Of a stretch of DNA of 10,611 nt, positions 1 to 10,611 are shown in pieces; position 1 is the first letter of the stretch, and every line of letters starts with the position of its first letter. The position numbers were made by a program, and so were the translations under genes. The notes under the pieces are model-generated. The model saw only the letters and a list, made by a program, of their open reading frames with translations. It ran no database searches and was not told the origin of the DNA. This DNA comes from Oscillospiraceae bacterium (lineage in GTDB: Bacteria > Bacillota > Clostridia > Oscillospirales > Ruminococcaceae). The stretch lies in assembly GCA_016295545.1 (NCBI GenBank), contig JAEDLA010000026.1, positions 1 through 10,611 on the forward strand, in the 5' to 3' direction.

Positions 1-38
1 AGATTAATGTAAGCTTAGTATAAATATCAATATCTCTA

Positions 39-61
39 ATTGGAAATTAACCAATCGGAGG
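39..61 (+). promoter_or_regulatory. Leader hairpin and ribosome binding site of the first operon gene
   Basis: A small inverted repeat (ATTGG at 39-43, CCAAT at 51-55) sits just before the GGAGG ribosome site at 57-61, which is 9 nt from the ATG at 71. The hairpin is only 5 bp with a 7-nt loop, so any effect on translation is a guess. A TATAAA at 19-24 could be a -10 element, but its -35 would fall at the window edge, so no promoter is called. I see no Fur-type or DtxR-type operator and no cobalamin riboswitch in these 70 nt; most of the leader may lie outside the window. Confidence 0.35.
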
Positions 62-70
62 AATTAATTT

Positions 71-1084
71 ATGAAAAATCACAGGAATATCAACGCCGCA
101 TTTCTTGCTGCATCTTTCATTGTTGCAATGATATCAACAGGCTGCACAGATAGGAGTTCAGATATGAAAACTTCCAAAAATGATAACGGAGCAAATTCAG
201 TTTCAGAGGAATCAAAGGCTGTTCAGAAAAGTGATGATGAGGATTATTCAACTGGTGATGCTAAGCTTGATGATCCCCGCAATCAGGATAATATCGGAGA
301 AAATGAGCTTCTTGTCCTCAGTTTCGGTACAAGCTTCAACGACAGCCGGCGACTAACTATCGGTGCAATCGAAAATTCGCTGGAATCAGCTTTTCCGGAT
401 TATTCGGTAAGGCGAGGTTTCAGTGCAAATATTGTTATCGACCACATAAACAGACGTGACAATATTCTTATAGATGATATTGACGCTGCACTTAAAAGAG
501 CTGTTGACAATGGAGTAAAAAATCTTGTGGTACAGCCTACGCATCTCATGAACGGAATTGAATATAATGAGATAGTGGACAAAACTGCTGCTTATTCAGA
601 TGCGTTTGAGAAAGTTGTTTTTGGTGAACCGCTTCTTACAAGTGACGAAGATTTTGAAAGAGTTGAAAAAGCAATTGTTGACTGGACTTCTGAATATGAC
701 GATGGCAATACTGCAATTTGTTTTATGGGACACGGAACAGAAGCTGACTCCAACTATGTTTATGAAAAAATGCAGAAGCTTCTTAAAGAAAACGGACATA
801 CAAATTATTTTATAGGTACAGTTGAAGCTTCTCCAACTCTTGATGATGTGATGAATGCCGTTAAAAGCGGAGGATATAAAAAGGTTATTCTTGAGCCCTT
901 AATGGTCGTTGCCGGAGATCATGCCAATAATGATATGGCAGGAGACGAGGATTCATGGAAAACTGCTTTTGAGGAAGAAGGCTTTGAGGTCGAATGTCTG
1001 CTTCGTGGACTTGGTGAGAACGAGGAAATCAGACAGATCTACGTTGATCATGCACAAGCGGCTATTGATTCGATTAACAAATAA
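71..1084 (+). CDS. Exported CbiK-type metal chelatase lipoprotein (sirohydrochlorin cobaltochelatase family)
   Basis: 337-residue protein with a lipoprotein signal peptide: basic N-terminus, hydrophobic stretch 9-21, lipobox ISTGC with Cys25 as the lipidation site. Residues 26-76 are a Ser/Asp/Glu/Lys-rich tether. The chelatase domain runs from about 78 (ELLVLSFGTSFND) to 337, about the size of a whole cytoplasmic CbiK. Class II chelatases of this family insert cobalt (or iron) into sirohydrochlorin using two His and one Glu; here H221 (FMGHGTE), E253 (GTVEASP) and H284 (AGDHANND) are spaced 32 and 31 residues apart, as expected for the metal ligands. Exported relatives are known: periplasmic CbiK of Desulfovibrio and the CbiK-like haem-binding lipoprotein of Porphyromonas gingivalis (IhtB/FetB). 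No other cobalamin biosynthesis gene is nearby, and the gene heads an ABC importer operon, so a role in handling metal-tetrapyrroles at the cell surface is more likely than B12 synthesis. The family call is firm; the substrate is inference. Confidence 0.88.
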   Translation: MKNHRNINAAFLAASFIVAMISTGCTDRSSDMKTSKNDNGANSVSEESKAVQKSDDEDYSTGDAKLDDPRNQDNIGENELLVLSFGTSFNDSRRLTIGAIENSLESAFPDYSVRRGFSANIVIDHINRRDNILIDDIDAALKRAVDNGVKNLVVQPTHLMNGIEYNEIVDKTAAYSDAFEKVVFGEPLLTSDEDFERVEKAIVDWTSEYDDGNTAICFMGHGTEADSNYVYEKMQKLLKENGHTNYFIGTVEASPTLDDVMNAVKSGGYKKVILEPLMVVAGDHANNDMAGDEDSWKTAFEEEGFEVECLLRGLGENEEIRQIYVDHAQAAIDSINK

Positions 1085-1095
1085 AAAAATTATTT

Positions 1096-1124
1096 CAGGC
1101 GGCAGAAAATTTGCTGCCTGTTTT
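1096..1124 (+). terminator. Intercistronic hairpin with short U tract (partial terminator or mRNA stabiliser)
   Basis: Positions 1096-1106 pair with 1110-1120 (11 pairs, two of them G-U) around an AAA triloop, followed by TTTT at 1121-1124. It lies 11 nt after the stop codon of the chelatase gene and before the ribosome site of the next gene. The U tract is short, so full termination is unlikely. A partial terminator, or a 3' stabilising stem raising the amount of chelatase mRNA over the downstream genes, fits the layout. Seen directly: the pairing and T run. Function is inferred. Confidence 0.5.
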
Positions 1125-1125
1125 G

Positions 1126-1145
1126 AAAAGGTGAAAATTATTATG
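1126..1145 (+). promoter_or_regulatory. Ribosome binding site that fixes the start of the NEAT-like lipoprotein
   Basis: AAAAGGTGA at 1126-1134 precedes the ATG at 1143 by 8 nt. The same frame stays open upstream to an ATG at 909, but that stretch lies inside the chelatase gene and does not look like protein. Starting at 1143 gives a perfect lipoprotein signal peptide. Confidence 0.7.
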
Positions 1146-2000
1146 AGAAATAGATTTATATTAATAATGCTGACTGCTGTACTTCTTGTCGGCTGTTCTT
1201 CTGAGAATATAGCTTCTGAAATCTCCCCTGCCGATAATGTTGCTGGCGAAGCTGAAACTGCTCCGGTGGAAGAACTTGATACTTCAAATCTGACGCCTGT
1301 TTACGGCACTGATATCAGGGACGGAGAATACGAAATTTCTGTGGATTCAAGCTCCTCAATGTTCAATATCGAAAGCTGTAAACTTAATGTTTTAAACGGA
1401 GAAATGACTGCTGAAATGACAATGAGCGGCACAGGATATTTGTATGTTTTCATGGGAAAAGGTGCTGATGCCGAGGAAAAGGGATATATCCCATATAAGG
1501 AAAACGCTGACGGAAAACATACTTTTACTGTGCCTGTAAAGTCCCTTGATACGTTGACTGAATGTGCTGCATTCAGCAAGAAAAAAGATAAATGGTACGA
1601 CCGCACATTGATTTTCCATGCCTCTGACCTGCCTTTAGAAGCATTTAACGAAGATAAAATCATAACTGCTGAATCACTTGAACTTGCTGATGGTGATTAT
1701 ACTGTTGATGTGAAGCTTGAGGGCGGTTCAGGAAAAGCTTCAGTTGAAACTCCCACGAAACTGACTGTTAAAGACGGCACAGCCTATGCAGAAATAATCT
1801 GGAGCAGCTCCTCCTATGACTATATGAAAGTCGATGATTTTAAGTTTGAACCTATAAATACTGAGGGGAATTCAGTCTTTGAAATTCCGGTGAAATGCTT
1901 TGATTTCAAAATGCCTGTAAAGGCAGATACAACTGCAATGAGCACTCCCCATGAAATCGATTACACCCTGTACTTTGACTCGTCAACTTTAAGCAAATGA
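1143..2000 (+). CDS. Lipoprotein with two NEAT-like (iron-transport-associated) domains
   Basis: 285 residues. Signal peptide MRNRFILIMLTAVLLVGC with lipobox LVGC, Cys18 lipidated, then an acidic tether to about residue 56. Two beta-rich repeats follow. Domain 1 is about 57-159 (opens RDGEYEISV, closes KWYDRTLIF); domain 2 is about 181-279 (opens ADGDYTVDV, has SSSSYDYMKV, closes STPHEIDYTLYF). Both open with DG-E/D-Y, hold a Ser-rich turn ahead of an aromatic (MSGTGYLY and SSSSYDYM), and end in a matching strand after an A-F/M-S triplet. This resembles NEAT-type iron-transport-associated domains of Gram-positive surface proteins, which bind haem or pass it on. The YxxxY haem-ligand motif of classical NEAT domains is not seen in either copy, so haem binding is uncertain. 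The gene sits between the chelatase and the binding protein, with which it overlaps by 4 nt. Likely role: surface receptor or relay for the transported ligand. Confidence 0.75.
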   Translation: MRNRFILIMLTAVLLVGCSSENIASEISPADNVAGEAETAPVEELDTSNLTPVYGTDIRDGEYEISVDSSSSMFNIESCKLNVLNGEMTAEMTMSGTGYLYVFMGKGADAEEKGYIPYKENADGKHTFTVPVKSLDTLTECAAFSKKKDKWYDRTLIFHASDLPLEAFNEDKIITAESLELADGDYTVDVKLEGGSGKASVETPTKLTVKDGTAYAEIIWSSSSYDYMKVDDFKFEPINTEGNSVFEIPVKCFDFKMPVKADTTAMSTPHEIDYTLYFDSSTLSK

Positions 2001-3133
2001 ACAGACTGAAATATATTGCAGCAGCTGTTTTTATGTTTTCTACAGCTGTATCATGCTCCTTTCATAATGAGGAGCATGATTGTCTGCTTACGGATATGAA
2101 TAAAATAGGCAGCATGAAGCTTGAATATGCTGAGATGTTTACTGTCGATTTTTATGAGAATGATTTGTCTTTAGTTACTATAGGTGAGAATGATTATTAC
2201 CTTATTGTTCCGGAAAAATCAGAAATTCCCGAAAATATTCCGGATAATACAGTTGTTCTGACTCAGCCGGCTGAAAACATCTATCTTGCCGCTTCGTCTG
2301 CTATGGATTTATTTGAGGGAATCAGCGCTCTTGATTCTGTTAAAGCTACCTCTACTACCATTAATGACTGGTCATTGCCTGCTGTTAAGGAGGCTATGGA
2401 GGAGGAAAAAATTCTTTACGCCGGAAAGTATTCAGCGCCGGATTATGAACTTATTATTGAAGAGGATTGTTCCCTTGCCATAGAATCAACAATGATTTAT
2501 CATAGTCCCGAAATAAAGGAACAGCTTGAAAATATAGGCATTCCTGTAATGGTGGAAAAATCAAGCTATGAATCGCACCCTCTCGGACGAATGGAATGGA
2601 TAAAGCTGTATGGTCTGCTTACAGGAAAAACAAAAGAGGCTGAGGCTTTTTTCAATGAAAAGGTCAGGCAGACAAATGATATCCTTGCTGATGAACACAC
2701 AGGAAAAACTGCAGCATTTTTTTATATTACCTCCGACGGAAAGGTCAATATTCACAAACCGGGAGACTATGTTTCAAAAATGATAGAACTTGCAGGCGGA
2801 GAATTTATCTTCACAGCAGAGGAACTGAACGTGGAAGAAAATTCACTTTCTACTATGAATATGCAGTTTGAAGCCTTTTATTCAAAGGCAAAGGATTCCG
2901 ATTTTCTGATTTATAACAGTGCTATAGACGGTGAACTTTTTTCAATTGACCAGCTTATCCAAAAAAATAGTCTTTTTGCTGATTTTAAGGCTGTGCAGAA
3001 CGGTAATGTCTGGTGTACAGATAAAAATATCTTTCAGCAGACTGCTGATGTAGCTGATATGATTGCAGATATGCACAAAATTTTTACCGGACTTGATGCT
3101 GATAAAACCATGTATATCAAAAAGCTGAATTAA
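1997..3133 (+). CDS. ABC transporter substrate-binding lipoprotein (TroA/BtuF/FhuD-like, iron-compound type)
   Basis: 378 residues. Signal peptide with a relaxed lipobox AVSC, Cys20 lipidated. From about residue 70 the protein reads as a helical-backbone class III binding protein: LAASSAMDLF, then ILYAGKYSAPDYELI at about 134-148, AIESTMIYHSPE at about 156-167, a long linker helix near 200-230, and a C-terminal lobe with VNIHKPGDYVSKMIELAGG and NVWCTDKNIFQQ. This fold delivers iron chelates, haem or corrinoids to FecCD/BtuC permeases. Its ATG overlaps the stop of the preceding gene (ATGA at 1997-2000), and I see no good ribosome site in front, so translation is probably coupled. A perfect 11-bp inverted repeat lies in the coding region right after the lipobox codon (2050-2080). 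The closely packed permease and ATPase genes follow. The family is clear; the ligand is not readable from sequence. Confidence 0.88.
   Translation: MNRLKYIAAAVFMFSTAVSCSFHNEEHDCLLTDMNKIGSMKLEYAEMFTVDFYENDLSLVTIGENDYYLIVPEKSEIPENIPDNTVVLTQPAENIYLAASSAMDLFEGISALDSVKATSTTINDWSLPAVKEAMEEEKILYAGKYSAPDYELIIEEDCSLAIESTMIYHSPEIKEQLENIGIPVMVEKSSYESHPLGRMEWIKLYGLLTGKTKEAEAFFNEKVRQTNDILADEHTGKTAAFFYITSDGKVNIHKPGDYVSKMIELAGGEFIFTAEELNVEENSLSTMNMQFEAFYSKAKDSDFLIYNSAIDGELFSIDQLIQKNSLFADFKAVQNGNVWCTDKNIFQQTADVADMIADMHKIFTGLDADKTMYIKKLN
2050..2080 (+). repeat. Perfect 11-bp inverted repeat inside the binding-protein gene
   Basis: ATCATGCTCCT (2050-2060) is the exact reverse complement of AGGAGCATGAT (2070-2080), with a 9-nt loop. 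In the mRNA it forms a stable stem at codons 18-28, around the lipidated Cys codon. The right arm contains AGGAG next to ATG, but only 1 nt apart, so it is not a workable internal start. Confidence 0.75.
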
Positions 3134-3134
3134 T

Positions 3135-3148
3135 GGAGGAAAAGTGTG
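3135..3148 (+). promoter_or_regulatory. Ribosome binding site and GTG start of the permease
   Basis: GGAGGA at 3135-3140, 5 nt before a GTG start codon at 3146. The strong site and the 12-nt gap from the previous stop support the GTG start; translation from it gives a basic N-terminus followed at once by the first membrane segment. Confidence 0.7.
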
Positions 3149-4159
3149 AAAACTAATACAAAAAGATACCTGATCTGCTTTGGAATACTTTTTGTCCTTA
3201 TTGCAGCGGCATTTATTTTAAGCCTTTATTCCGGCAGCATTAATGTTCCTGTCAGAGAAATAACCGATATTATTACTGGTAAAAGCGGAAGTCTAACATC
3301 AGCAAACATAATTTTAAGGATTCGCCTGCCACGAATCCTTTCTGCTGTTATTCTCGGTGGAGCTTTGTCAGTTTCCGGTTTTCTGCTTCAGACATTTTTC
3401 AATAATCCAATAGCTGGTCCTTTTGTTCTGGGAATTTCCTCTGGTGCAAAGCTTGCAGCTGCTTTTGCAATGATACTTTCACTAAAATCAGGGGTAATGC
3501 TGAGTTCTGCCGGACTTCTCACTTCTGCATTCTGCGGCTCAATGGCGTCAATGGGACTTATCATACTTGTTTCAGGAAGAACTGAAAAAAACTCCACTCT
3601 TATTATCAGCGGAGTTATGATAGGATATATTTGCTCAGCAATAACTGATTTTGCTGTCACATTTGCTGATGATTCCAACATTGTTAATCTTCATAACTGG
3701 TCAATGGGAAGCTTTTCCGGCATAGATTCGGGCGATGTCAAAACAATGGCTGCTGTAGTTTTTCCGGCACTTGCTGCTGCTTTTCTTATGTCAAAACAAA
3801 TAGGTGCATATCAGCTGGGCGAAATCTATGCACGCAGCTCAGGAGTAAATATCCGTCTTTTCAGAATATTGCTTATTCTTCTTTCAAGCTTTTTATCAGC
3901 TGCTGTAACAGCTTTTGCCGGTCCTGTTTCATTTGTGGGAATTGCAGTACCTCACCTTATAAAAAGTCTGTTCAGGACTTCAAAGCCTCATGTCGTGATA
4001 CCGGCTTCATTTCTCGGCGGAGCTTTTTTCTGCCTGCTGTGCGACTGGATAGCACGCACTGCCTTTGCTCCCACTGAACTGAGCATTAGTACAGTTACTG
4101 CCGCTTTCGGAGCACCGGTTGTTATACGTATAATGCTTCACAAAAAAAAGGACAGGTGA
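3146..4159 (+). CDS. FecCD/BtuC-family ABC transporter permease
   Basis: 337 residues, usual length for this family (about 330-350), rich in hydrophobic segments, first one at about 8-28. Family marks in order: ILRIRLPRILSAVILGGALS at 56-75, FLLQTFFNNPIAGPFVLGIS at 79-98 (the conserved N-P-x-A-x-P-x-x-LG-x-S-x-G block), and GPVSFVGIAVPHLIKSLF at 259-276, the cytoplasmic coupling region that contacts the ATPase. Such permeases work as homodimers in the cytoplasmic membrane and pass iron chelates, haem or cobalamin. The GTG start is preceded by GGAGGA. The stop is 4 nt before the ATPase start. Only one permease gene is present, consistent with a homodimer. Confidence 0.92.
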   Translation: MKTNTKRYLICFGILFVLIAAAFILSLYSGSINVPVREITDIITGKSGSLTSANIILRIRLPRILSAVILGGALSVSGFLLQTFFNNPIAGPFVLGISSGAKLAAAFAMILSLKSGVMLSSAGLLTSAFCGSMASMGLIILVSGRTEKNSTLIISGVMIGYICSAITDFAVTFADDSNIVNLHNWSMGSFSGIDSGDVKTMAAVVFPALAAAFLMSKQIGAYQLGEIYARSSGVNIRLFRILLILLSSFLSAAVTAFAGPVSFVGIAVPHLIKSLFRTSKPHVVIPASFLGGAFFCLLCDWIARTAFAPTELSISTVTAAFGAPVVIRIMLHKKKDR

Positions 4160-4163
4160 TTTT

Positions 4164-5270
4164 ATGGAAAAAGCTTTGATTTATACAAAATCACTATCCG
4201 TTGGATACAGTGGAAAAGTACTCATAGACGGAATTGAAATATCCGTAAATTCAGGAGAAATACTTACCCTGATAGGTCCGAACGGTGCAGGAAAATCTAC
4301 AATTCTGAAAACGCTTTGCCGTCAGCTTCAGAAAATTTCAGGAGCTGTTTACATCAACGGAAAAGAATCAGATTATTTCAGGAATCGTGAACTTGCAAAA
4401 AATATGTCTATACTTATGACAGGACGTGTTGAGCCTGAGCTTATGACCTGTGGTGATGTAGTAAAATCCGGAAGATATCCATATACAGGTCAGCTTGGAA
4501 TACTCTCGGAAAATGACAGAATCATAGCAATGGAAGCTATGAACCTAACATCAGTCGAGGAACTGGCAGACAAAAGTTTCAGCTGCATCAGTGACGGTCA
4601 GCGGCAGAGAGTTATGCTTGCAAGGGCAATCTGTCAGGAGCCTGAGATTCTTATTCTTGATGAGCCGACTTCTTTTCTTGATATTCATCACAAGCTCGAA
4701 CTTCTCAGCATTCTGAAAAAACTTGTATATGAGAAAAAGATTGCAGTGATTATGTCAATGCATGAAATCGAGCTTGCTCAGAAAATTTCCGATTATGTTG
4801 TATGCATCAGTAGCAGAGGTATTGATAAATGCGGCACTCCGGAAGAAATTTTCACCAGTGAATACATAAGCAGACTTTACGCAATCAGTCCGTCAAGCTA
4901 TAACTCAGATTTCGGTTCAGTTGAGCTTGAATGCGTCAAGGGCTCACCGGATGTTTTTGTAATTGCCGGAAATGGTTCGGGAATCAGAACATTCCGCCGG
5001 CTGCAAAGAATGAATATCCCCTTTGCTGCCGGAGTTCTTCACGAAAATGATATCGACTATGCCGCTGCAAAGTCACTGGCTTCGGAAATAATCTCAGAAA
5101 AGCCTTTTGAACCTGTTTCCGGAATCAATATAGATAAAGCCACAAAACTAATGGATTCTTGCTGTAAGGTCATCTGCTGTCTTGAAAGCTTCGGAACCTT
5201 TAACGCCGGTAATAAACAGCTTTTAAAATATGCTGAGGAAAAAGGATATCTTGTGAATAAGCTATTTTGA
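4164..5270 (+). CDS. ABC transporter ATPase of the iron/cobalamin importer type, with an extra C-terminal domain
   Basis: 368 residues, about 100 longer than usual FhuC/BtuD ATPases. Walker A GPNGAGKST 38-46; signature region CISDGQRQRVMLARA 141-155 (SDGQ in place of SGGQ); Walker B ILILDEPTSFLD 162-173; H-loop His200 (SMHEIEL). Where a Q-loop Gln is expected (LPQ in FhuC-like proteins) the sequence reads ILMTGRVEPELMT (83-95), with Thr86 at the Gln position. The extra region, about 253-368, begins after a short linker and holds VFVIAGNGSGIRTFRRLQR (264-282), a Gly-rich turn after a beta strand like a Rossmann-type nucleotide-binding turn, then PFAAGVLHENDIDY and SCCKVICCLESFG with Cys 333, 334, 338 and 339. 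I do not recognise a named domain there. It is the last gene of the operon and would energise the permease from the cytoplasm. ATPase call firm; function of the tail unknown. Confidence 0.9.
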   Translation: MEKALIYTKSLSVGYSGKVLIDGIEISVNSGEILTLIGPNGAGKSTILKTLCRQLQKISGAVYINGKESDYFRNRELAKNMSILMTGRVEPELMTCGDVVKSGRYPYTGQLGILSENDRIIAMEAMNLTSVEELADKSFSCISDGQRQRVMLARAICQEPEILILDEPTSFLDIHHKLELLSILKKLVYEKKIAVIMSMHEIELAQKISDYVVCISSRGIDKCGTPEEIFTSEYISRLYAISPSSYNSDFGSVELECVKGSPDVFVIAGNGSGIRTFRRLQRMNIPFAAGVLHENDIDYAAAKSLASEIISEKPFEPVSGINIDKATKLMDSCCKVICCLESFGTFNAGNKQLLKYAEEKGYLVNKLF

Positions 5271-5450
5271 TATTCATGCATCAGCTTTCAGGCAGGTTAT
5301 CGATTAACTGTGCTACCTTTTTTCTGAATAGAAAGTGCATCAGAGATAAACACTCCGTCTCTAAAAAAGTTTATTTACAAGAGATTCATATCCCTACTCA
5401 TTACCCCAAACAATAATTATAGTTAAATCTAAAAAATATTCTTTATTCAC
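5271..5450. other. Intergenic strip after the importer operon
   Basis: No credible gene. It contains the weak terminator candidate at 5290-5323, a direct repeat TGCATCAG at 5277-5284 and 5336-5343, and a 5-bp inverted repeat (AGAGA/TCTCT) near 5343-5363 followed by an A run, which has the wrong polarity for a plus-strand terminator. The rest is AT-rich sequence leading into the tRNA promoter. Confidence 0.6.
5290..5323 (+). terminator. Weak Rho-independent terminator candidate for the importer operon
   Basis: An imperfect stem (AGG at 5290-5292 with CCT at 5316-5318; GGTTA at 5295-5299 with TAACT at 5305-5309) ends in a run of six T at 5318-5323, 48 nt after the ATPase stop. The stem has large internal mismatches, so the call rests mainly on its position and T run. 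If it fails, the transcript would read on to the strong terminator at 5596-5641. Confidence 0.35.
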
Positions 5451-5479
5451 TTGACAAGTAACTGTTTTTGTAGTATAAT
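5451..5479 (+). promoter_or_regulatory. Consensus sigma-A promoter of tRNA-Leu
   Basis: TTGACA at 5451-5456 and TATAAT at 5474-5479, both exact consensus, separated by the optimal 17 nt. Transcription should start near 5486, about 17 nt before the mature tRNA 5' end. A perfect match is typical of strongly expressed stable-RNA genes. Confidence 0.9.
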
Positions 5480-5502
5480 ATTAAAGTAATAAAATTCAAT
5501 AA

Positions 5503-5589
5503 GCGGATATGGCGGAATAGGCAGACGCGCTGGCTTCAGGTGCCAGTCGGGGCAACTCGGTGCAGGTTCAACTCCTGTTATCCGCACCA
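5503..5589 (+). tRNA. tRNA-Leu (anticodon CAG)
   Basis: Full class II cloverleaf, 87 nt including the encoded CCA (5587-5589). The acceptor stem GCGGATA (5503-5509) pairs with TATCCGC (5579-5585), discriminator A5586. The anticodon stem CTGGC/GCCAG encloses the loop TTCAGGT, giving anticodon CAG, which reads CUG leucine codons. The long variable arm (TCGGGGCAACTCGG) is as expected for leucine. The T arm has the loop TTCAACT between CAGG and CCTG. It stands alone with its own promoter and terminator. Confidence 0.96.
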
Positions 5590-5595
5590 AATTGA

Positions 5596-5641
5596 AATAA
5601 TCCGAACACTATTTATCTAAATGGTGTTCGGATTATTTTTT
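5596..5641 (+). terminator. Strong terminator after tRNA-Leu
   Basis: A perfect 14-bp stem (5596-5609 with 5624-5637) is extended by a T-G pair and four more pairs (5611-5614 with 5619-5622), about 19 pairs in all around an ATCT loop. A run of six T at 5636-5641 follows. It starts 6 nt after the tRNA CCA end. The left arm is A-rich at its base, so it may also act on minus-strand transcripts. Confidence 0.92.
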
Positions 5642-5659
5642 GGTGTTGTTCATCTAAAA

Positions 5660-5698
5660 TAAAAGCCTGACTTGCTTTTTGTGGCAGGCAGGCTTTTA
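5660..5698 (-). terminator. Terminator of the lon-engB-lysA operon
   Basis: AAAAGCCTG (5661-5669) pairs with CAGGCTTTT (5689-5697), and inside it CTTGC (5671-5675) pairs with GCAGG (5684-5688), leaving one bulged A. Read on the minus strand the stem ends in TTTTATTTT, a proper U tract, about 30 nt after the lysA stop. Read on the plus strand the right arm also ends in TTTT, so it may work both ways. A smaller 7-bp inverted repeat, TACGTAT/ATACGTA (5702-5723), lies between it and the lysA stop. Confidence 0.85.
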
Positions 5699-5727
5699 AA
5701 TTACGTATCATCAATTATACGTAGACA

Positions 5728-7026
5728 TTATATATCATTTCTGATTATATCATCAAGAGTTTCCCTCTTGACAACAACTCTTGACTGACCGTCCTTAATA
5801 AATACAACAGCAGGCTTAGGAATTCTGTTGTAGTTTGAGGACATGGAGTAGTTATAAGCACCGGTAGCACAGACAGCAATGATATCTCCTGATTCAGCGT
5901 GCTGGAGAGGCATATTTTCACCGATAAGGTCACCACTTTCACAGCATTTTCCTGCAATAGTGACTTTTTCTGTACGTTCTTCACCAGCCTTGTCAGCAAC
6001 AACAGCCTCGTACTCTGATTTATAGAGAGCGTATCTGGGATTATCTCCCATGCCGCCGTCAATTGAAATATATGTCCTTATATTCGGAATCTCCTTGCGT
6101 GCTCCTACTTTATAGAGTGTTATGCCTGCCGGAGCAGCAATTGAACGTCCGGGTTCAATAAGTATAAACGGCTGAGTAATTCCATACTCTGCACAGCTGC
6201 TTTTAACGACCTGAGAAACCTTTTCCATGTAAGTTTCAAATGGTACAGGATCATGCTCGTTAAGATATTTAATGCCGAATCCACCGCCAAGATTAAGCTC
6301 CTTAATCTCGTAGTCAAGTTCATTTTTAATTTTTGCAATGAAACCAAGCATTACCTTTGCAGCCTCCTCAAAGGGAGCTATATCGAAAATCTGTGAACCT
6401 ATGTGGCAATGAAGTCCTCTCAGAATAACATTTTTGCATGAAACTGCCTGCTTTACTGCTTCAAAAGCCTCCCCTGTCTCAAGGGCAAAGCCGAATTTGC
6501 TGTCAATCTGACCTGTTTTTACAAAGTCATGAGTATGAGCATCAATTCCTGGTTTGATTCTAAACATTATCTTTGCAGTAATATTCTTTTCCCCTGCAAT
6601 TTCTTCAAGGCGGATAAGCTCGCTGATATTGTCAACAATGATATGTCCCACACCACATTCAAGAGCATAGCTTAGCTCCTCATCGGTCTTGTTATTTCCG
6701 TGGAAACACATCTTCTCACAGTCGCAGCCAGCCTTAACAGCAGTATACAGTTCTCCGATAGATACAACATCAAGACCGATTCCTTCGTCTTTCATGATTC
6801 TGCACATTTCCTTGCAGCAGAAAGCCTTGCTTGCATAACAAACCAAGCCCTGACCGCCGTAGTACTTGTCAATACTGCTTTTGAAACGACGCACATTGTT
6901 CCTGATAAGGTTTTCGTCCATTACATAAAGAGGTGTACCATACTGCTCTGCAAGTGACACAGTATCAATACCGCCGGCAGCAAGATGCCCTTTTTCATTA
7001 ACGCTGAGATTTTCAGATACAAACAT
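5728..7026 (-). CDS. lysA: Diaminopimelate decarboxylase
   Basis: 432 residues from the chosen start. PLP-dependent fold type III decarboxylase that turns meso-diaminopimelate into L-lysine and CO2, the last step of lysine synthesis, in the cytoplasm. Motifs: YASKAF with the PLP Lys67; HCHIGSQ 206-212; GGGFG 247-251 for phosphate binding; EPGRS 291-295; CCESGD 361-366, the active-site Cys region supplied by the partner subunit of the dimer; GAYNYSMSSNYN 389-400. Length is normal for the family. The start at 7026 is chosen because AGGAAG lies 8 nt upstream and the protein opens FVSENLSVNEKGHL, an ordinary LysA N-terminus; the frame remains open to 7080 but that stretch overlaps the end of engB. 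Third gene of the lon-engB-lysA run, 16 nt after engB. Confidence 0.96.
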   Translation of the reverse strand: MFVSENLSVNEKGHLAAGGIDTVSLAEQYGTPLYVMDENLIRNNVRRFKSSIDKYYGGQGLVCYASKAFCCKEMCRIMKDEGIGLDVVSIGELYTAVKAGCDCEKMCFHGNNKTDEELSYALECGVGHIIVDNISELIRLEEIAGEKNITAKIMFRIKPGIDAHTHDFVKTGQIDSKFGFALETGEAFEAVKQAVSCKNVILRGLHCHIGSQIFDIAPFEEAAKVMLGFIAKIKNELDYEIKELNLGGGFGIKYLNEHDPVPFETYMEKVSQVVKSSCAEYGITQPFILIEPGRSIAAPAGITLYKVGARKEIPNIRTYISIDGGMGDNPRYALYKSEYEAVVADKAGEERTEKVTIAGKCCESGDLIGENMPLQHAESGDIIAVCATGAYNYSMSSNYNRIPKPAVVFIKDGQSRVVVKRETLDDIIRNDI

Positions 7027-7043
7027 AAATTCAACTTCCTTTT
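7026..7043 (-). promoter_or_regulatory. Ribosome binding site that fixes the lysA start
   Basis: On the minus strand AAAAGGAAGT (7043 to 7034) precedes the ATG at 7026, with 8 nt between AGGAAG and ATG. It touches the engB stop codon region, so lysA translation may follow closely on engB. Confidence 0.7.
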
Positions 7044-7651
7044 CAAAAATTTTCCTCGTCATCGGCTGCAATGTCGTCAATTATCTGTCTTAACTCCTCA
7101 ACTCCCTCAAAGGTCTGGGAAGAAAAAGGAATTACGTGTATATCGTCAAAGCACGGGATTTCAGTTCTGAAAGCCGCCATACGCTTTTCACGCTCAGTTT
7201 TTTTCAGCTTGTCTGCTTTTGTAAGGACTATTACAAAAGGCAGCTCCGTATCAATAAGATAATTTATCATGTCAAGGTCGTCGGCTGAGGGAGCATGGCG
7301 CATATCCACAAGAAGAAATACCAGCCGCAGGTCCCTGTCTGAATTAAGATATCCCTCTATCAGTCCTGACCACCGCTCCTTTTCGCTTTTGGAAACCTTT
7401 GCATAGCCATAGCCGGGTAAATCCACAAAGTAAATATTCTCCATTCCATAAAAATTTATGGTTGCTGTTTTACCAGGTACAGAGCTTACTCTTGCAAGAC
7501 TTTTCCTGTTGAAAAGCTTGTTTATCAGAGTAGACTTTCCAACATTTGAACGTCCTGCAAAAGCTATTTCGATACGCTCAGGAGGTGGTATCTGGGAAAA
7601 TTTTCCGTAAGAAGCACAAAACTCCGCTTTATTGTAATTCATTGGGAACAT
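7043..7651 (-). CDS. engB: Ribosome biogenesis GTPase EngB/YsxC
   Basis: 202 residues, usual size for this small TRAFAC GTPase needed for 50S subunit assembly in the cytoplasm. G1 GRSNVGKS 33-40; G2 Thr62 in PGKTATINF; G3 DLPG 77-80 in the family mark VDLPGYGYAKVSKSEKERW; G4 TKAD 144-147; G5 FSSQT 176-180. Two starts are possible: the ATG at 7651, only 3 nt from the GGAGG, and an in-frame ATG at 7642, 12 nt from it (10 nt from a second, overlapping GGAG). The protein proper begins NYNKAEF after the second Met, so 7642 is a real alternative (199 residues). It lies 11 nt after lon; the lon-engB (lonA-ysxC) pair is conserved in many Firmicutes. Confidence 0.95.
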   Translation of the reverse strand: MFPMNYNKAEFCASYGKFSQIPPPERIEIAFAGRSNVGKSTLINKLFNRKSLARVSSVPGKTATINFYGMENIYFVDLPGYGYAKVSKSEKERWSGLIEGYLNSDRDLRLVFLLVDMRHAPSADDLDMINYLIDTELPFVIVLTKADKLKKTEREKRMAAFRTEIPCFDDIHVIPFSSQTFEGVEELRQIIDDIAADDEENF

Positions 7652-7652
7652 T

Positions 7653-7660
7653 CTCCTCCT
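7653..7660 (-). promoter_or_regulatory. Ribosome binding site of engB, ambiguous between two starts
   Basis: AGGAGGAG on the minus strand. GGAGG is 3 nt from the ATG at 7651 and 12 nt from the ATG at 7642; neither is the usual 5-9 nt, so the start cannot be settled from spacing alone. Confidence 0.6.
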
Positions 7661-7662
7661 TT

Positions 7663-10005
7663 TTATGATTCAAGAGCAGTACCAAGCACATCGCTGATAT
7701 TTTCGGCATAAACAAACTCAATTTTTTCCTTGACAACATCATCGACTTCTTCAAGGTCAGGCTTGTTTGCCGCTGGAATAACAACTGTTCTTATATCAGC
7801 TTTATAAGCAGCCATTGTCTTTTCACGAAGTCCGCCTATGGGAAGAACTTTTCCGTGAAGCGTTATTTCTCCGGTCATTGCCACATCTGACCTAACAGGA
7901 ATACCTGACAGTGCTGAAACAAGAGCTGTTACCATTGTAACTCCGGCAGAGGGACCGTCTTTCGGAACAGCTCCCTCCGGTGCGTGAATGTGTATATCAT
8001 TTTCCTTGTAAAAATCAGGATTGATATTGTACTTGTCGGCAATGCTCCTGCTGTAGCTTACAGCAAGCTTTGCACTCTCTTTCATTACATCGCCAAGAGA
8101 GCCGGTTACCTCGATTTTTCCGCTGCCTTTGAGCACAAGGACTTCAAGTGGCATAAGAACTCCGCCCACTGATGTCCATGCAAGTCCATTTACTACACCC
8201 ACCTGATTTTCCTTTGAAACAAGGTCGGGAAGATACTTATAAACGCCAAGAAGCTCTTTCAGGCTGTCTGACTTGACTGCAACTTTTTTTACTTCGCCGG
8301 AGGCAATTTTTTTAGCAGCTTTACGGCAGAGTGATGCAATATATCTTTCAAGTGTTCTTACGCCGGCTTCCTTTGTGTAGAACTGAATCAGGTCATGAAC
8401 TGCTCCGTCCTCGATTTTCAGCTGACTTGCTTTCAGTCCGTGTTCTTTAAGCTGCTTCGGTATAAGATGATTTCTTGCAATATGGAATTTTTCTTCTGCA
8501 GTATAGCTGGGCAGTTCAATAATCTCCATACGGTCAAGAAGCGGCTGCGGTATTGCTGAAATATTATTTGCCGTTGTTATGAATACAGCCTTGCTTAAAT
8601 CAAAGGGAATTTCTATGAAGTGGTCTCTGAAAGCATTGTTCTGCTCACTGTCGAGTACTTCAAGCATGGCAGAAGACGGGTCACCCTTTATATCGCTGCA
8701 CATCTTATCAATCTCGTCAAAAAGGATAAGAGGATTTGCTGAGCCTGCCTGCTGCAATGCAGTAATGATACGTCCCGGCATAGCTCCGACGTAAGTTTTT
8801 CTGTGTCCACGAATATCAGCTTCGTCACGAACGCCGCCCAGAGATACTCTTGCATATTTTCTTCCCATTGCCCGGGCAATTGACTTTGCAATGGAAGTCT
8901 TTCCTACTCCGGGAGGGCCGGCAAGGCAGATTATCTGTCCCTTGATTTCGGGATTAAGTGCATGAACTGCAAGAAATTCAAGTATGCGCTCTTTGACCTT
9001 TTTAAGACCATAGTGATCCTTTTCAAGAATTGCCTCCGCCTTGTCAATGGACAGCTTGGCTCTGGTATATTTCCCCCATGGCAGGTCAAGAACAGTGTCA
9101 AGATAATTCTTTATTACAAACGCTTCCTGTGATGAGGGCGGCAGCTTTGTCAGCTTATCAGCCTCCTTTAGCAGTTTTTCACGACTTTTCTCATCAGTTT
9201 TCAGGCTCATTATATCGTTGATATAATTAAATGCCTCGTCACCGTCGTTTTCGCCCAGCTGTTCCTGAATAACACGCATCTGCTCTCGTAGGAAATACTC
9301 TTTCTGACCTTTTTCAATGCTGTTTTTAGTCTGTTCATTGATAAGGGTTTCAAGCTCAAGTATCTCCACTTCTGAGCTGAGGCAGGCAAATAATACTGAA
9401 AGCTTGTTGATTATATTTGATTCCTCAAGAAGTGTCTGCTTGTCACGGTAGTTCAGATTGCAGTTAAAGGTCACGGCTTCAAAAAGCTTTACCGGTGATT
9501 CCTGTGCCATTACAGAAGCAAGCAGCTCCTTAGGCATACGTGGGAAAAATGACGCATAATGTTCAAAAATATCCTTGACAGAGCGCATAAGCGCCTCTGC
9601 TTCAACTTCATCATATCTGGCTCTTGAATAAGTCGGAATTCTCTTTACCTCTGCTTTGAGAACATCACCTTCATCAGAAAGGTGAACAAGATTCGCTTTA
9701 TAAACGCCCTCTACAAGAACTTTCATAATATTATCCGGAAGTTTAAGAACCTGGCGGATTTCAGCCACAACGCCAACTTTATATAAATCAGAAGCCTTTG
9801 GATTATCCACATAAGTCTCATGCTGTGCAACAAGAAAAAGCTTACCATTCTCCTTTAATGCTCTTTCAACAGCATTTACAGACTTTTCACGGGCAACATC
9901 GAAATGCATGACCATTTTAGGGAATGCAACAAGTCCACGCATAGCTACGGTATAAAAAACGTTTCCGTTATCTGTATTTTTATCACTTTTAATTATTTGT
10001 TCCAT
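7663..10005 (-). CDS. lon: ATP-dependent serine protease Lon
   Basis: 780 residues, normal for LonA. It is a cytoplasmic hexameric AAA+ protease that degrades misfolded and some regulatory proteins. N-terminal substrate-binding domain about 17-205 ([19 protein letters not shown]), then a helical coiled-coil stretch about 215-260 ([18 protein letters not shown]). AAA+ module: Walker A GPPGVGKT 363-370, Walker B ILFDEID 427-433, sensor region [10 protein letters not shown] 477-486. C-terminal protease domain: catalytic Ser686 in PKDGPSAG and Lys729 in GGLREKT, 43 residues apart as in E. coli Lon (Ser679, Lys722). All key residues are intact. Start at 10005: GGTGG, a G-U-tolerant ribosome site, lies 4 nt upstream. 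First gene of the lon-engB-lysA run. No CIRCE or CtsR-type heat-shock operator is seen upstream. Confidence 0.97.
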
Positions 10006-10043
10006 TATTCCACCACATTTCTTCTATATCTGACAGATGTCTG

Positions 10044-10059
10044 AACGGTATAATCCGTT
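10044..10059 (-). repeat. Small palindrome in the lon leader
   Basis: AACGG (10044-10048) and CCGTT (10055-10059) flank a 6-nt TATAAT spacer. It lies between the lon -10 element and the lon start, in the transcribed leader. It could be an operator or a weak RNA hairpin; with only 5 bp, chance is also possible. Confidence 0.4.
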
Positions 10060-10067
10060 ACTTTATT

Positions 10068-10096
10068 ATTATACTATATCCGCCGCAAAAATGCAA
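10068..10096 (-). promoter_or_regulatory. Probable sigma-A promoter of lon-engB-lysA
   Basis: On the minus strand the -35 is TTGCAT (10096 to 10091) and the -10 is an exact TATAAT (10073 to 10068), 17 nt apart. The -35 matches the consensus TTGACA at only three positions. The start of transcription would be near 10061, giving a leader of about 55 nt before the lon ATG. Confidence 0.6.
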
Positions 10097-10196
10097 GTAT
10101 AAAATAACCCATGCAATAGATAGGTATTGTTCCATTCTGTATATAATTTCGTGTCAGAATATGATGAACGACAGCAGTCTTACCCACAACATCAAT

Positions 10197-10216
10197 TAAC
10201 AATGCTATCATTGTTA
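10197..10216 (-). terminator. Hairpin at the end of the fic-like gene, weak terminator candidate
   Basis: TAACAATG (10197-10204) and CATTGTTA (10209-10216) form a perfect 8-bp stem with a CTAT loop. On the minus strand the stop codon of the fic-like gene is inside the stem. The stem is AT-rich and only a scattered T stretch follows, so termination is doubtful. Confidence 0.35.
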
Positions 10217-10611
10217 TTGAGCGTCACTTCTTGTATAGAATGTGCTGCGTCCTGTTCCATGCCTTACAAGCAATCCCTGTTCTACAAGCTGCTTGATTGC
10301 ATTCTCAATGGATGCCTTGCTAAGTGTAGGACAAAGCTCCATGACTTCACTCTTGGTAAACTTCCCAATCTTATTGTAGACGGCTCGACGAACCATTTCT
10401 ATTGCAGGCAGCTTCTCATCAACCAGCGCTACACGCTCCTCGAAGTCACGGTACGCAGCAAGAACGGTCTGCAACAGATACTTGATAAAAAGTGTAGGAT
10501 CTTCTGCATTTTCTGTCCAGCCTTTCTGACACTGCTCCAATGCATCGTAGTAAAGATTCTTGTTCTTTGCAATCTTGCTTTCAAGGGAAATATACCTTCC
10601 GATCACATAAC
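10214..10611 (-). CDS. Fic-family protein, C-terminal part (5' end outside the window)
   Basis: The frame is open to the window edge; about 131 residues of the C-terminus are visible and the stop is at 10214-10216. The part seen reads YVIGRYISLESKIAKNKNLY, then ALEQCQKGW and DPTLFIKYLLQTVLAAYRDFEERV, which match the helical C-terminal part of Fic/DOC-family proteins after the catalytic loop. The end, about 85 residues later from GKFTKSEVMELC through IENAIKQLVEQGLLVRHGTG, is a winged helix-turn-helix as found in many Fic proteins. Fic enzymes usually transfer AMP to target proteins; the HPFxxGNGR loop that would prove activity lies upstream, beyond the window, so activity cannot be judged. A GTG codon at 10606 is just an internal Val. 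The family call is by sequence character. Confidence 0.75.
   Translation of the reverse strand, partial: YVIGRYISLESKIAKNKNLYYDALEQCQKGWTENAEDPTLFIKYLLQTVLAAYRDFEERVALVDEKLPAIEMVRRAVYNKIGKFTKSEVMELCPTLSKASIENAIKQLVEQGLLVRHGTGRSTFYTRSDAQ

Follow-up and report, generated by a model that had tools for sequence, protein, structure and literature searches.

What is a CbiK-type chelatase doing outside the cell membrane, encoded in one operon with an ATP-binding cassette (ABC) importer? The question is raised by a 10,611-nt stretch of DNA from an Oscillospiraceae bacterium (GenBank assembly GCA_016295545.1, contig JAEDLA010000026.1, positions 1 to 10,611; this whole stretch is called the window below). 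At positions 71-5270 it carries five plus-strand open reading frames (ORFs), separated by 58, -4, 12 and 4 bases, which encode, in this order, a CbiK-type chelatase lipoprotein, a lipoprotein with two NEAT domains, a substrate-binding protein (SBP), a FecCD permease and an ATPase. Our results indicate a B12-regulated, chelatase-coupled operon for tetrapyrrole import, which likely brings in an early corrin ring loaded with cobalt. Its features are as follows (A1 and A3 are protein alignments of relatives):

33..61, plus strand: possible hairpin that covers the GGAGG ribosome-binding site of gene 1, from folding; weak, and no aptamer was matched inside the window
71..1084, plus strand: exported CbiK-type class II chelatase, a lipoprotein (Cys25); Pfam CbiK, PDB relatives
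542..544, plus strand: His158, equivalent of His83 of Salmonella CbiK; alignment, invariant in A1
560..562, plus strand: Glu164, equivalent of Glu89 of Salmonella CbiK; alignment, invariant in A1
731..733, plus strand: His221, equivalent of the catalytic His145 of Salmonella CbiK; alignment
920..922, plus strand: His284, equivalent of the catalytic His207 of Salmonella CbiK; alignment
1143..2000, plus strand: lipoprotein with two NEAT-type domains; Pfam, fold comparison
1296..1646, plus strand: NEAT-like domain 1 (conserved SSSSMF ... WYDR); Pfam NEAT stretch, hhalign to domain 2, alignment A3
1656..1997, plus strand: NEAT domain 2, last strand [HY]xxxY, His270...Tyr274 (codons 1950-1964)
1997..3133, plus strand: substrate-binding lipoprotein of the Peripla_BP_2 family; Pfam
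3146..4159, plus strand: permease of the FecCD family, closest to BtuC among NCBIfam models (under the cut-off); Pfam, NCBIfam
4164..5270, plus strand: ABC ATPase with a C-terminal extension of ~125 amino acids; Pfam, NCBIfam

ORF calls and Pfam domains bore out what a first-pass annotation, made from the letters of the window, had described: five close-packed plus-strand genes, of which the last two encode a FecCD permease (1.6e-77) and an ATPase (ABC_tran, 3.2e-29). Gene 2 was started at the ATG at 1143, inside a listed TTG ORF (909-2000), and gene 4 (3146-4159) starts with GTG. The lipoprotein signals claimed for the first three genes were likewise recognized by eye, as a signal peptide and a lipobox-like cysteine at each N-terminus (Cys25, Cys18 and Cys20). 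Cys25 is invariant in A1 (chelatase) and Cys18 in alignment A2 (NEAT protein), while Cys20 is nearly invariant in alignment A5 (SBP).

One genome per species was scanned with an alignment of exported CbiK, which yielded at least 589 relatives; the best 80 made up our set of loci. In 63 of these 80 loci all five genes are present and share one strand, and the NEAT gene was found in 78 (all but L022 and L048); a search for such co-occurrence of exported CbiK with the NEAT lipoprotein had been proposed in the first-pass annotation. Since the gene order recurs in relatives, the arrangement is not a matter of chance; the operon is conserved across rumen and gut Clostridia, in bacteria related to Ruminococcus. 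Ten of the 17 incomplete loci lie at or within ~300 bases of a contig edge (L003, L004, L007, L023, L024, L026, L028, L043, L058, L059), and in the remaining seven (L018, L022, L037, L044, L048, L057, L078) a member is absent for other reasons. Neighboring genes of the operon are also found fused, CbiK to NEAT (L075, L080 and P0111) or NEAT to SBP (L058, L060, L066, L070, L073 and L074). All fusion genes come from draft assemblies, but sequencing errors can hardly account for six independent NEAT-SBP fusions. The two kinds of fusion suggest that CbiK, the NEAT protein and the SBP act on one common substrate. The exported proteins are monophyletic (1 change, SH-aLRT 91) on a quickly built tree that holds 64 CbiK domains. 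The CbiKs of L108 and L110 (genomes G169 and G030), which have an apparent N-terminal membrane anchor, stand beside the exported group on the tree and could be intermediates toward export.

How the operon is regulated was evident from the relatives. A cobalamin riboswitch (RF00174) was detected upstream of exported cbiK in 42 of the 44 loci scanned out of the 80 (by batch 15/15; 16/17, not L044; 11/12, not L060) and in 15 of 17 loci from a separately drawn family sample (not L100 and L103). In L105 it lies ~2 kb upstream of cbiK, where it precedes the FecCD and ATPase genes. At loci with cytosolic or anchored CbiK, the riboswitch was present in three of 11 scanned (L110, L118 and L120). No aptamer was found inside the window, where 70 bases precede gene 1. 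In 39 relatives with a placeable start codon, the distance from the end of the aptamer to that codon is 61-473 bases (median 174), so the short leader could hardly show one and its absence is uninformative. Riboswitch control is known from the relatives only, and any riboswitch of the window operon would precede position 1; the weak hairpin at 33..61 (z -1.54, equalled by 16 of 200 shuffles) could form the last part of a riboswitch expression platform.

At least one cobalamin-synthesis gene was found in 44 of the 80 loci, in flanking sequence that reached at most 8 kb to either side. The neighbor clusters, named via NCBIfam on one representative each, were CbiP/CobQ, CbiC, CobT, CobD, CobS, CbiB, CobU, CobC, CbiF with CbiG, and CbiD; five of the ten names (CbiC, CobD, CobS, CobU and CobC) fall under the equivalog cut-offs. 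In R. flavefaciens YL228, a corrin cluster that lacks CbiL is lined up with a riboswitch and exported cbiK. The operon thus belongs to the B12 regulon. At L091:7453-8088, two divergent cobalamin riboswitches lie back to back, one facing the exported cbiK operon and the other the opposite side, with CbiD.

These two results bear on the main line of the first-pass annotation, capture of haem at the surface with removal of its iron after the P. gingivalis protein FetB (IhtB), which had itself named an upstream cobalamin riboswitch and cobalamin-synthesis neighbors as observations that would speak against it. Haem dechelation was also our own first working reading, and it was dropped because both were found in the relatives. 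We now regard it as very improbable. It is true that the NEAT domains and the SBP fold resemble haem-binding proteins, that FetB (9b86) is a close relative of the window chelatase (E 3.5e-56), and that IhtB rose about twofold under iron and haem starvation in P. gingivalis A7436, though it was unchanged in strain 33277 (PMC10913741). Apart from the B12 signals, however, the SBP scored 24.2 bits with the NCBIfam equivalog model of IsdE, for which 298.65 are required, and the ligand motif of the window NEAT protein departs from the haem type, as described below. The corrinoid or cobalt role, in the first-pass annotation the alternative, is favored by riboswitch, neighbors and gene content together.

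The chelatase itself was recognized by Pfam CbiK (6.4e-78; 262.1 bits, cut-off 26.2), while the NCBIfam equivalog for sirohydrochlorin cobaltochelatase CbiK was not reached (219.8 vs. 400 bits). Its closest solved structures are CbiK (1qgo/2xwp), FetB and CbiKP (2xvx). The residues His83, Glu89, His145 and His207 of Salmonella CbiK all have their equivalents in the window protein (His158, Glu164, His221 and His284), and these are invariant across the 20 sequences of A1; His145 and His207 form the catalytic pair (PMC7689651, section 5.4.1). Judged by these retained residues, the window chelatase looks active. Among the relatives we also noticed tandem CbiK-CbiK chains with two chelatase domains each (P0001, P0007 and P0012) and a 621-amino-acid CbiK frame at L078:6984-8849. 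Extra Pfam names on the tandem proteins (carrageenase, Fe-ADH and others) were taken as spurious; most are under their cut-offs, and one on P0001 exceeds it (32.6 vs. 27).

For the product of gene 2, the NEAT identity proposed at first was confirmed by Pfam (33.7 bits, cut-off 32.8, matching the first domain) and by fold, with the correction that the protein holds two NEAT-like domains. Fold comparison places the second domain on the NEAT fold, where it superposes on the IsdX1 NEAT domain, and the two halves of the protein are homologous to each other (hhalign E 1.3e-8). Domain 1 gave no NEAT match by profile against PDB sequences and is scarcely covered in the fold comparison. All 24 aligned rows carry [HY]xxxY in the final strand of domain 2, with His in 21 and Tyr in 3; the window protein has His270-Glu-Ile-Asp-Tyr274 (HxxxY). 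Haem-binding NEAT domains carry a YxxxY ligand motif, which is absent from the whole sequence of the window protein and occurs at the domain 2 position in eight of the 23 sequences of A2. The match by eye needs a two-residue shift relative to C-terminal anchoring, and equivalence of [HY]xxxY and YxxxY is therefore only a suggestion. Alternation of His and Tyr in a liganding residue would be in keeping with a ring that carries a metal.

The importer proteins narrow down the cargo less. The SBP belongs to Peripla_BP_2 (5.5e-27). In a Foldseek comparison its predicted model matched BtuF best with haem and siderophore binders close behind, and corrinoid, haem and siderophore binders were not separable by structure. 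The permease scored highest with the NCBIfam model of BtuC (205.7 bits), under the equivalog cut-off of 334. For the ATPase, the second-best model was the corrinoid ATPase (NF007082), with an alignment that covers most of the C-terminal extension; the first-pass annotation was right about the ATPase, to which this extension (window 4890-5267, without a Pfam domain of its own) has to be added. Several relatives' loci, e.g., L049, L050, L060 and L065, have a short ATPase (~252-256 amino acids). As B12 riboswitch control is typical for corrinoid importers, these similarities to BtuF, BtuC and the corrinoid ATPase invite another explanation, namely a BtuFCD-type importer of cobinamide or cobamides with a NEAT receptor, in which exported CbiK would be an accessory, for example a non-inserting corrinoid- or cobalt-binding protein. 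We consider this rather unlikely. The catalytic residues of CbiK would hardly be invariant in A1 and CbiK would hardly be fused to NEAT in some species if the chelatase were an accessory; further objections come from the gene content of the carriers. The domains and their conserved order support the more general proposal of the first-pass annotation, a surface metal-tetrapyrrole system that couples exported CbiK and a NEAT lipoprotein to an importer.

Gene content was read in two sets of genomes. The first comprised 24 hand-chosen genomes behind 24 of the 80 loci, and the second 148 evenly drawn genomes of one family, of which 45 match exported CbiK at E 1e-30. By sequence, 18 of these 45 have an exported lipoprotein, 25 a cytosolic CbiK (21 read; G031, G055, G108 and G112 assigned solely from frame length and score) and two an N-terminally anchored one (G169 and G030, kept out of both other classes). 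One of the 18 (G004) is shared with the first set, which leaves 17 additional genomes and a pool of 41 with exported CbiK; NEAT lies near exported CbiK in 16 of the 17. In the first set we found CbiD in 22 genomes, HemB in seven, HemC in eight, SUMT in eight and CbiL in 17, and HemB, HemC and SUMT were missing together in 16 of the 24. Isolates lacking all three are R. flavefaciens ND2009, Y1 and YL228 and F. naviforme ATCC 25832. Over the pool, HemB is present in ten, HemC in 12 (that of G036 incomplete, at the edge of a contig), SUMT in 11 and full CbiM in two. All of HemB, HemC and SUMT are absent from 29 of the 41 exported-CbiK genomes, and every one of these 29 retains CbiD, which was found in 22/24 and 17/17 exported-CbiK genomes of the two sets and in all 45 CbiK-matching genomes of the family. 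The 25 cytosolic-CbiK genomes have HemB in 15, HemC in 15, SUMT in 18, none of the three in seven, and CbiM in 13; both anchored-CbiK genomes have all four. Thus 29 of the 41 relatives combine corrin genes with absent early ring genes, as tetrapyrrole precursor salvagers do, when scored on marker genes; the full pathway was read in nine corrin clusters, and CbiD, F, G, H and J are present in all nine.

The exported protein is mostly the sole CbiK of its genome: no further CbiK was found in 21 of the 24 first-set genomes and, at a stricter threshold, in 16 of the 17 from the family, no second full-length CbiK in 38 of the 41 exported-CbiK genomes, and no CbiX beyond the CbiK genes in the 24 of the first set. 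For an importer of finished cobinamide or cobamides this is hard to understand, as the genomes retain the corrin pathway (CbiD in 22/24) and a cobinamide salvager needs none of CbiD, F, G, H and J, although that pathway could be a relict in ring-lacking genomes. In six ring-lacking genomes CbiL is missing both genome-wide at the model cut-off and in the cluster (G001, G002, G009, G010, G011 and G021; loci L081-L086), while CbiD, F, G, H, J, E/T and A are retained. This loss (Fisher p 0.13) would fit a ring that arrives C20-methylated (factor III), or a decaying pathway.

The cobalt importer shows a second contrast. Cbi/NikMNQO is described as the most widespread bacterial nickel/cobalt importer (PMC2667541), yet a full CbiM match is absent from 39 of the 41 exported-CbiK genomes; NiCoT and Cbt importers were not searched. 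Only CbiM matches of at least 178 bits were counted; 17 of the 68 genomes have one, and 22 exceed the Pfam cut-off of 23.1. Partial matches of 24-26 bits, just over that cut-off, in G008, G010, G059, G085 and G154 were ascribed to different proteins from this kind of transporter; those of G150 and G104 are under it. The two exported-CbiK genomes with full CbiM are G020 and G018, the latter with a CbiK piece ~2 kb from its CbiM. Since the contrast with the cytosolic class (2/41 vs. 13/25) persists among HemB-containing genomes (1/10 vs. 9/15), one may ask whether the operon scavenges cobalt only: CbiK, alone or with any porphyrin-like ring of the gut, would bind Co(II), and the chelate would be imported for its metal in place of CbiMNQO. 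We think this improbable, as it leaves the absence of ring synthesis in 29 of the 41 genomes unexplained and ring-lacking genomes with cytosolic CbiK are also without CbiM (present in 1/7). Moreover, we know of no system that extracts cobalt from such a ring inside cells. Fisher tests of exported vs. cytosolic genomes gave p 0.008 for HemB, 1.7e-5 for CbiM and 0.018 for CbiM among HemB-containing genomes; because the tree holds a single export event, all Fisher values given here, including those for CbiL and FecCD, are descriptive. HemB changes 15 times on the same CbiK-domain tree. A FecCD gene was seen within 7 kb of cytosolic CbiK in three of five ring-lacking genomes vs. none of 16 others fetched (p 0.0075; noticed post hoc and tested after seeing), as if the bare ring were imported first there.

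What, then, enters the cell? Without SUMT, 5-aminolevulinic acid, porphobilinogen or uroporphyrinogen III cannot be converted to precorrin-2. Salvage of these compounds would be of no use to genomes lacking SUMT, so the ring must enter at the level of sirohydrochlorin or later. As CbiK acts at that very level, and in most of these genomes the sole CbiK has a lipobox and is encoded beside an importer, this points to cobalt-sirohydrochlorin. Insertion of cobalt into an early ring agrees better with gene content than removal of a metal, and the missing CbiM fits cobalt that enters inside the ring. With moderate confidence we therefore favor a B12-regulated acquisition operon in which cobalt is inserted extracellularly into a sirohydrochlorin-type ring that is then imported for the corrin pathway. 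From the above we infer substrate, direction, site and order of hand-over as follows. The CbiK lipoprotein would insert Co(II) outside the membrane; the ring, of sirohydrochlorin type (factor II or, for some species, perhaps factor III), would be supplied by neighbors or by the cell itself. The two-NEAT lipoprotein would accept the cobalt-tetrapyrrole from CbiK and hand it to the SBP lipoprotein, from which the FecCD/ATPase pair would import it. Inside, CbiL/H/F/G/D and the rest would turn it into a cobamide, which would close the riboswitch. Most carriers would thereby do without both ring synthesis and the CbiMNQO cobalt importer, the system taking the place of either.

Several observations weigh against cobalt loading and ring import. 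The NEAT and SBP folds fit haem no less than corrinoids, metal specificity is poor in class II chelatases (PMC7689651), and Mn-protoporphyrin is reported as a product of FetB (review PMC13402209). G003, G014 and G036 have a second CbiK, in G036 of cytosolic length and beside CbiD, and G018 has a partial second one and a fragment. By the Pfam cut-off alone, CbiM would be counted in seven of the 41 exported-CbiK genomes. We had predicted beforehand that ring-lacking genomes with cytosolic CbiK keep CbiM, which failed (1/7). Ring makers occur among the carriers (HemB 10/41, SUMT 11/41), and ring salvage is therefore not universal. As the exported CbiKs form one clade, all contrasts between exported and cytosolic genomes amount to one event; tree-aware pair tests were not significant, with one independent pair for export and no power. 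Finally, gene absences were scored in genomes of unstated completeness.

Why ring-making carriers should place their chelatase outside has a boldest answer: the secreted ring could be a cobalt catcher. Across this clade of gut Clostridia, secreted or leaked sirohydrochlorin or factor III might serve as a shared cobaltophore, loaded by surface CbiK and imported via NEAT, SBP and FecCD even in ring makers, with Iht/FetB of P. gingivalis as the Gram-negative version. We put this forward tentatively, as an idea more doubtful than probable. Should cobalt loading at the surface hold, one step of B12 synthesis that is thought to be intracellular would move to the cell surface, B12 precursor salvagers would gain a candidate uptake route for a late ring, and exported CbiK proteins would have a role other than with haem iron. 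NEAT domains would become possible carriers of cobalt-tetrapyrroles, and a traded metabolite, sirohydrochlorin or factor III, would be predicted in gut and rumen. Plain annotation would yield only "cobaltochelatase plus iron ABC transporter."

Directly after the operon lies tRNA-Leu (CAG; window 5503-5589); tRNA genes are also seen in some relatives' loci, e.g., L046, L048, L054 and L075. The minus strand at 5728-10606 encodes a pyridoxal-dependent decarboxylase (diaminopimelate/ornithine type), a small ribosome-type GTPase, a Lon protease and a partial small regulator-like protein with a DIP2311-like C-terminal domain (below cut-off). These look like housekeeping genes.

Tetrapyrrole precursor salvagers were defined by Shelton et al. 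(PMC6461909) as organisms with the corrin pathway but without early ring steps; they are mostly Firmicutes, and 78% are host-associated where habitat is given. The verified salvagers of that study require 5-aminolevulinic acid, while the 29 genomes found here also lack HemB, HemC and SUMT. In the excerpts of that paper neither a precursor importer nor an exported chelatase is named, nor an uptake route for a ring later than uroporphyrinogen. A rumen contig set with eight of ten corrin steps and none of five early steps was filed as a cobinamide salvager (PMC12654859). Among the matches listed for open-licence literature (titles and abstract starts) we found no description of this operon.

The full domain of Salmonella CbiK and Desulfovibrio CbiKP (2xvx) can be aligned to the window chelatase, which keeps the catalytic histidines. 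CbiKP is periplasmic; Salmonella CbiK acts in the cytosol, unlike the exported window protein. With BtuFCD the operon shares a FecCD-type importer, under a cobalamin riboswitch in the relatives, and the nearest permease model is BtuC; however, the window permease is under the BtuC cut-off, and a chelatase and a NEAT protein are added. With the Isd/NEAT relay it shares NEAT domains beside a substrate-binding lipoprotein and a FecCD importer, domain 2 resembling the IsdX1 NEAT domain. Isd NEAT proteins are wall-anchored, whereas the window operon has lipoprotein anchoring, a chelatase and [HY]xxxY, and its relatives B12 regulation. The closest known relative in design is the Iht system of P. gingivalis (IhtA-E), so far read as a haem/iron system. 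It is Gram-negative and has the TonB receptor IhtA, for which there is no counterpart among the five genes of the window. Iht is hardly characterized, IhtB is reported to lie outside PgFur regulation, and in the excerpts of the report no NEAT protein is named, unlike in the window operon (PMC10913741). P. gingivalis is without precorrin-2 synthesis (PMC6461909). The likeness to IhtB/FetB seen in the first-pass annotation holds in design. For the lack of precorrin-2 synthesis in P. gingivalis, Roper et al. 2000 is said to be the original source. Like the window operon, Iht places an exported CbiK-type lipoprotein beside an SBP, a permease and an ATPase (PMC10913741).

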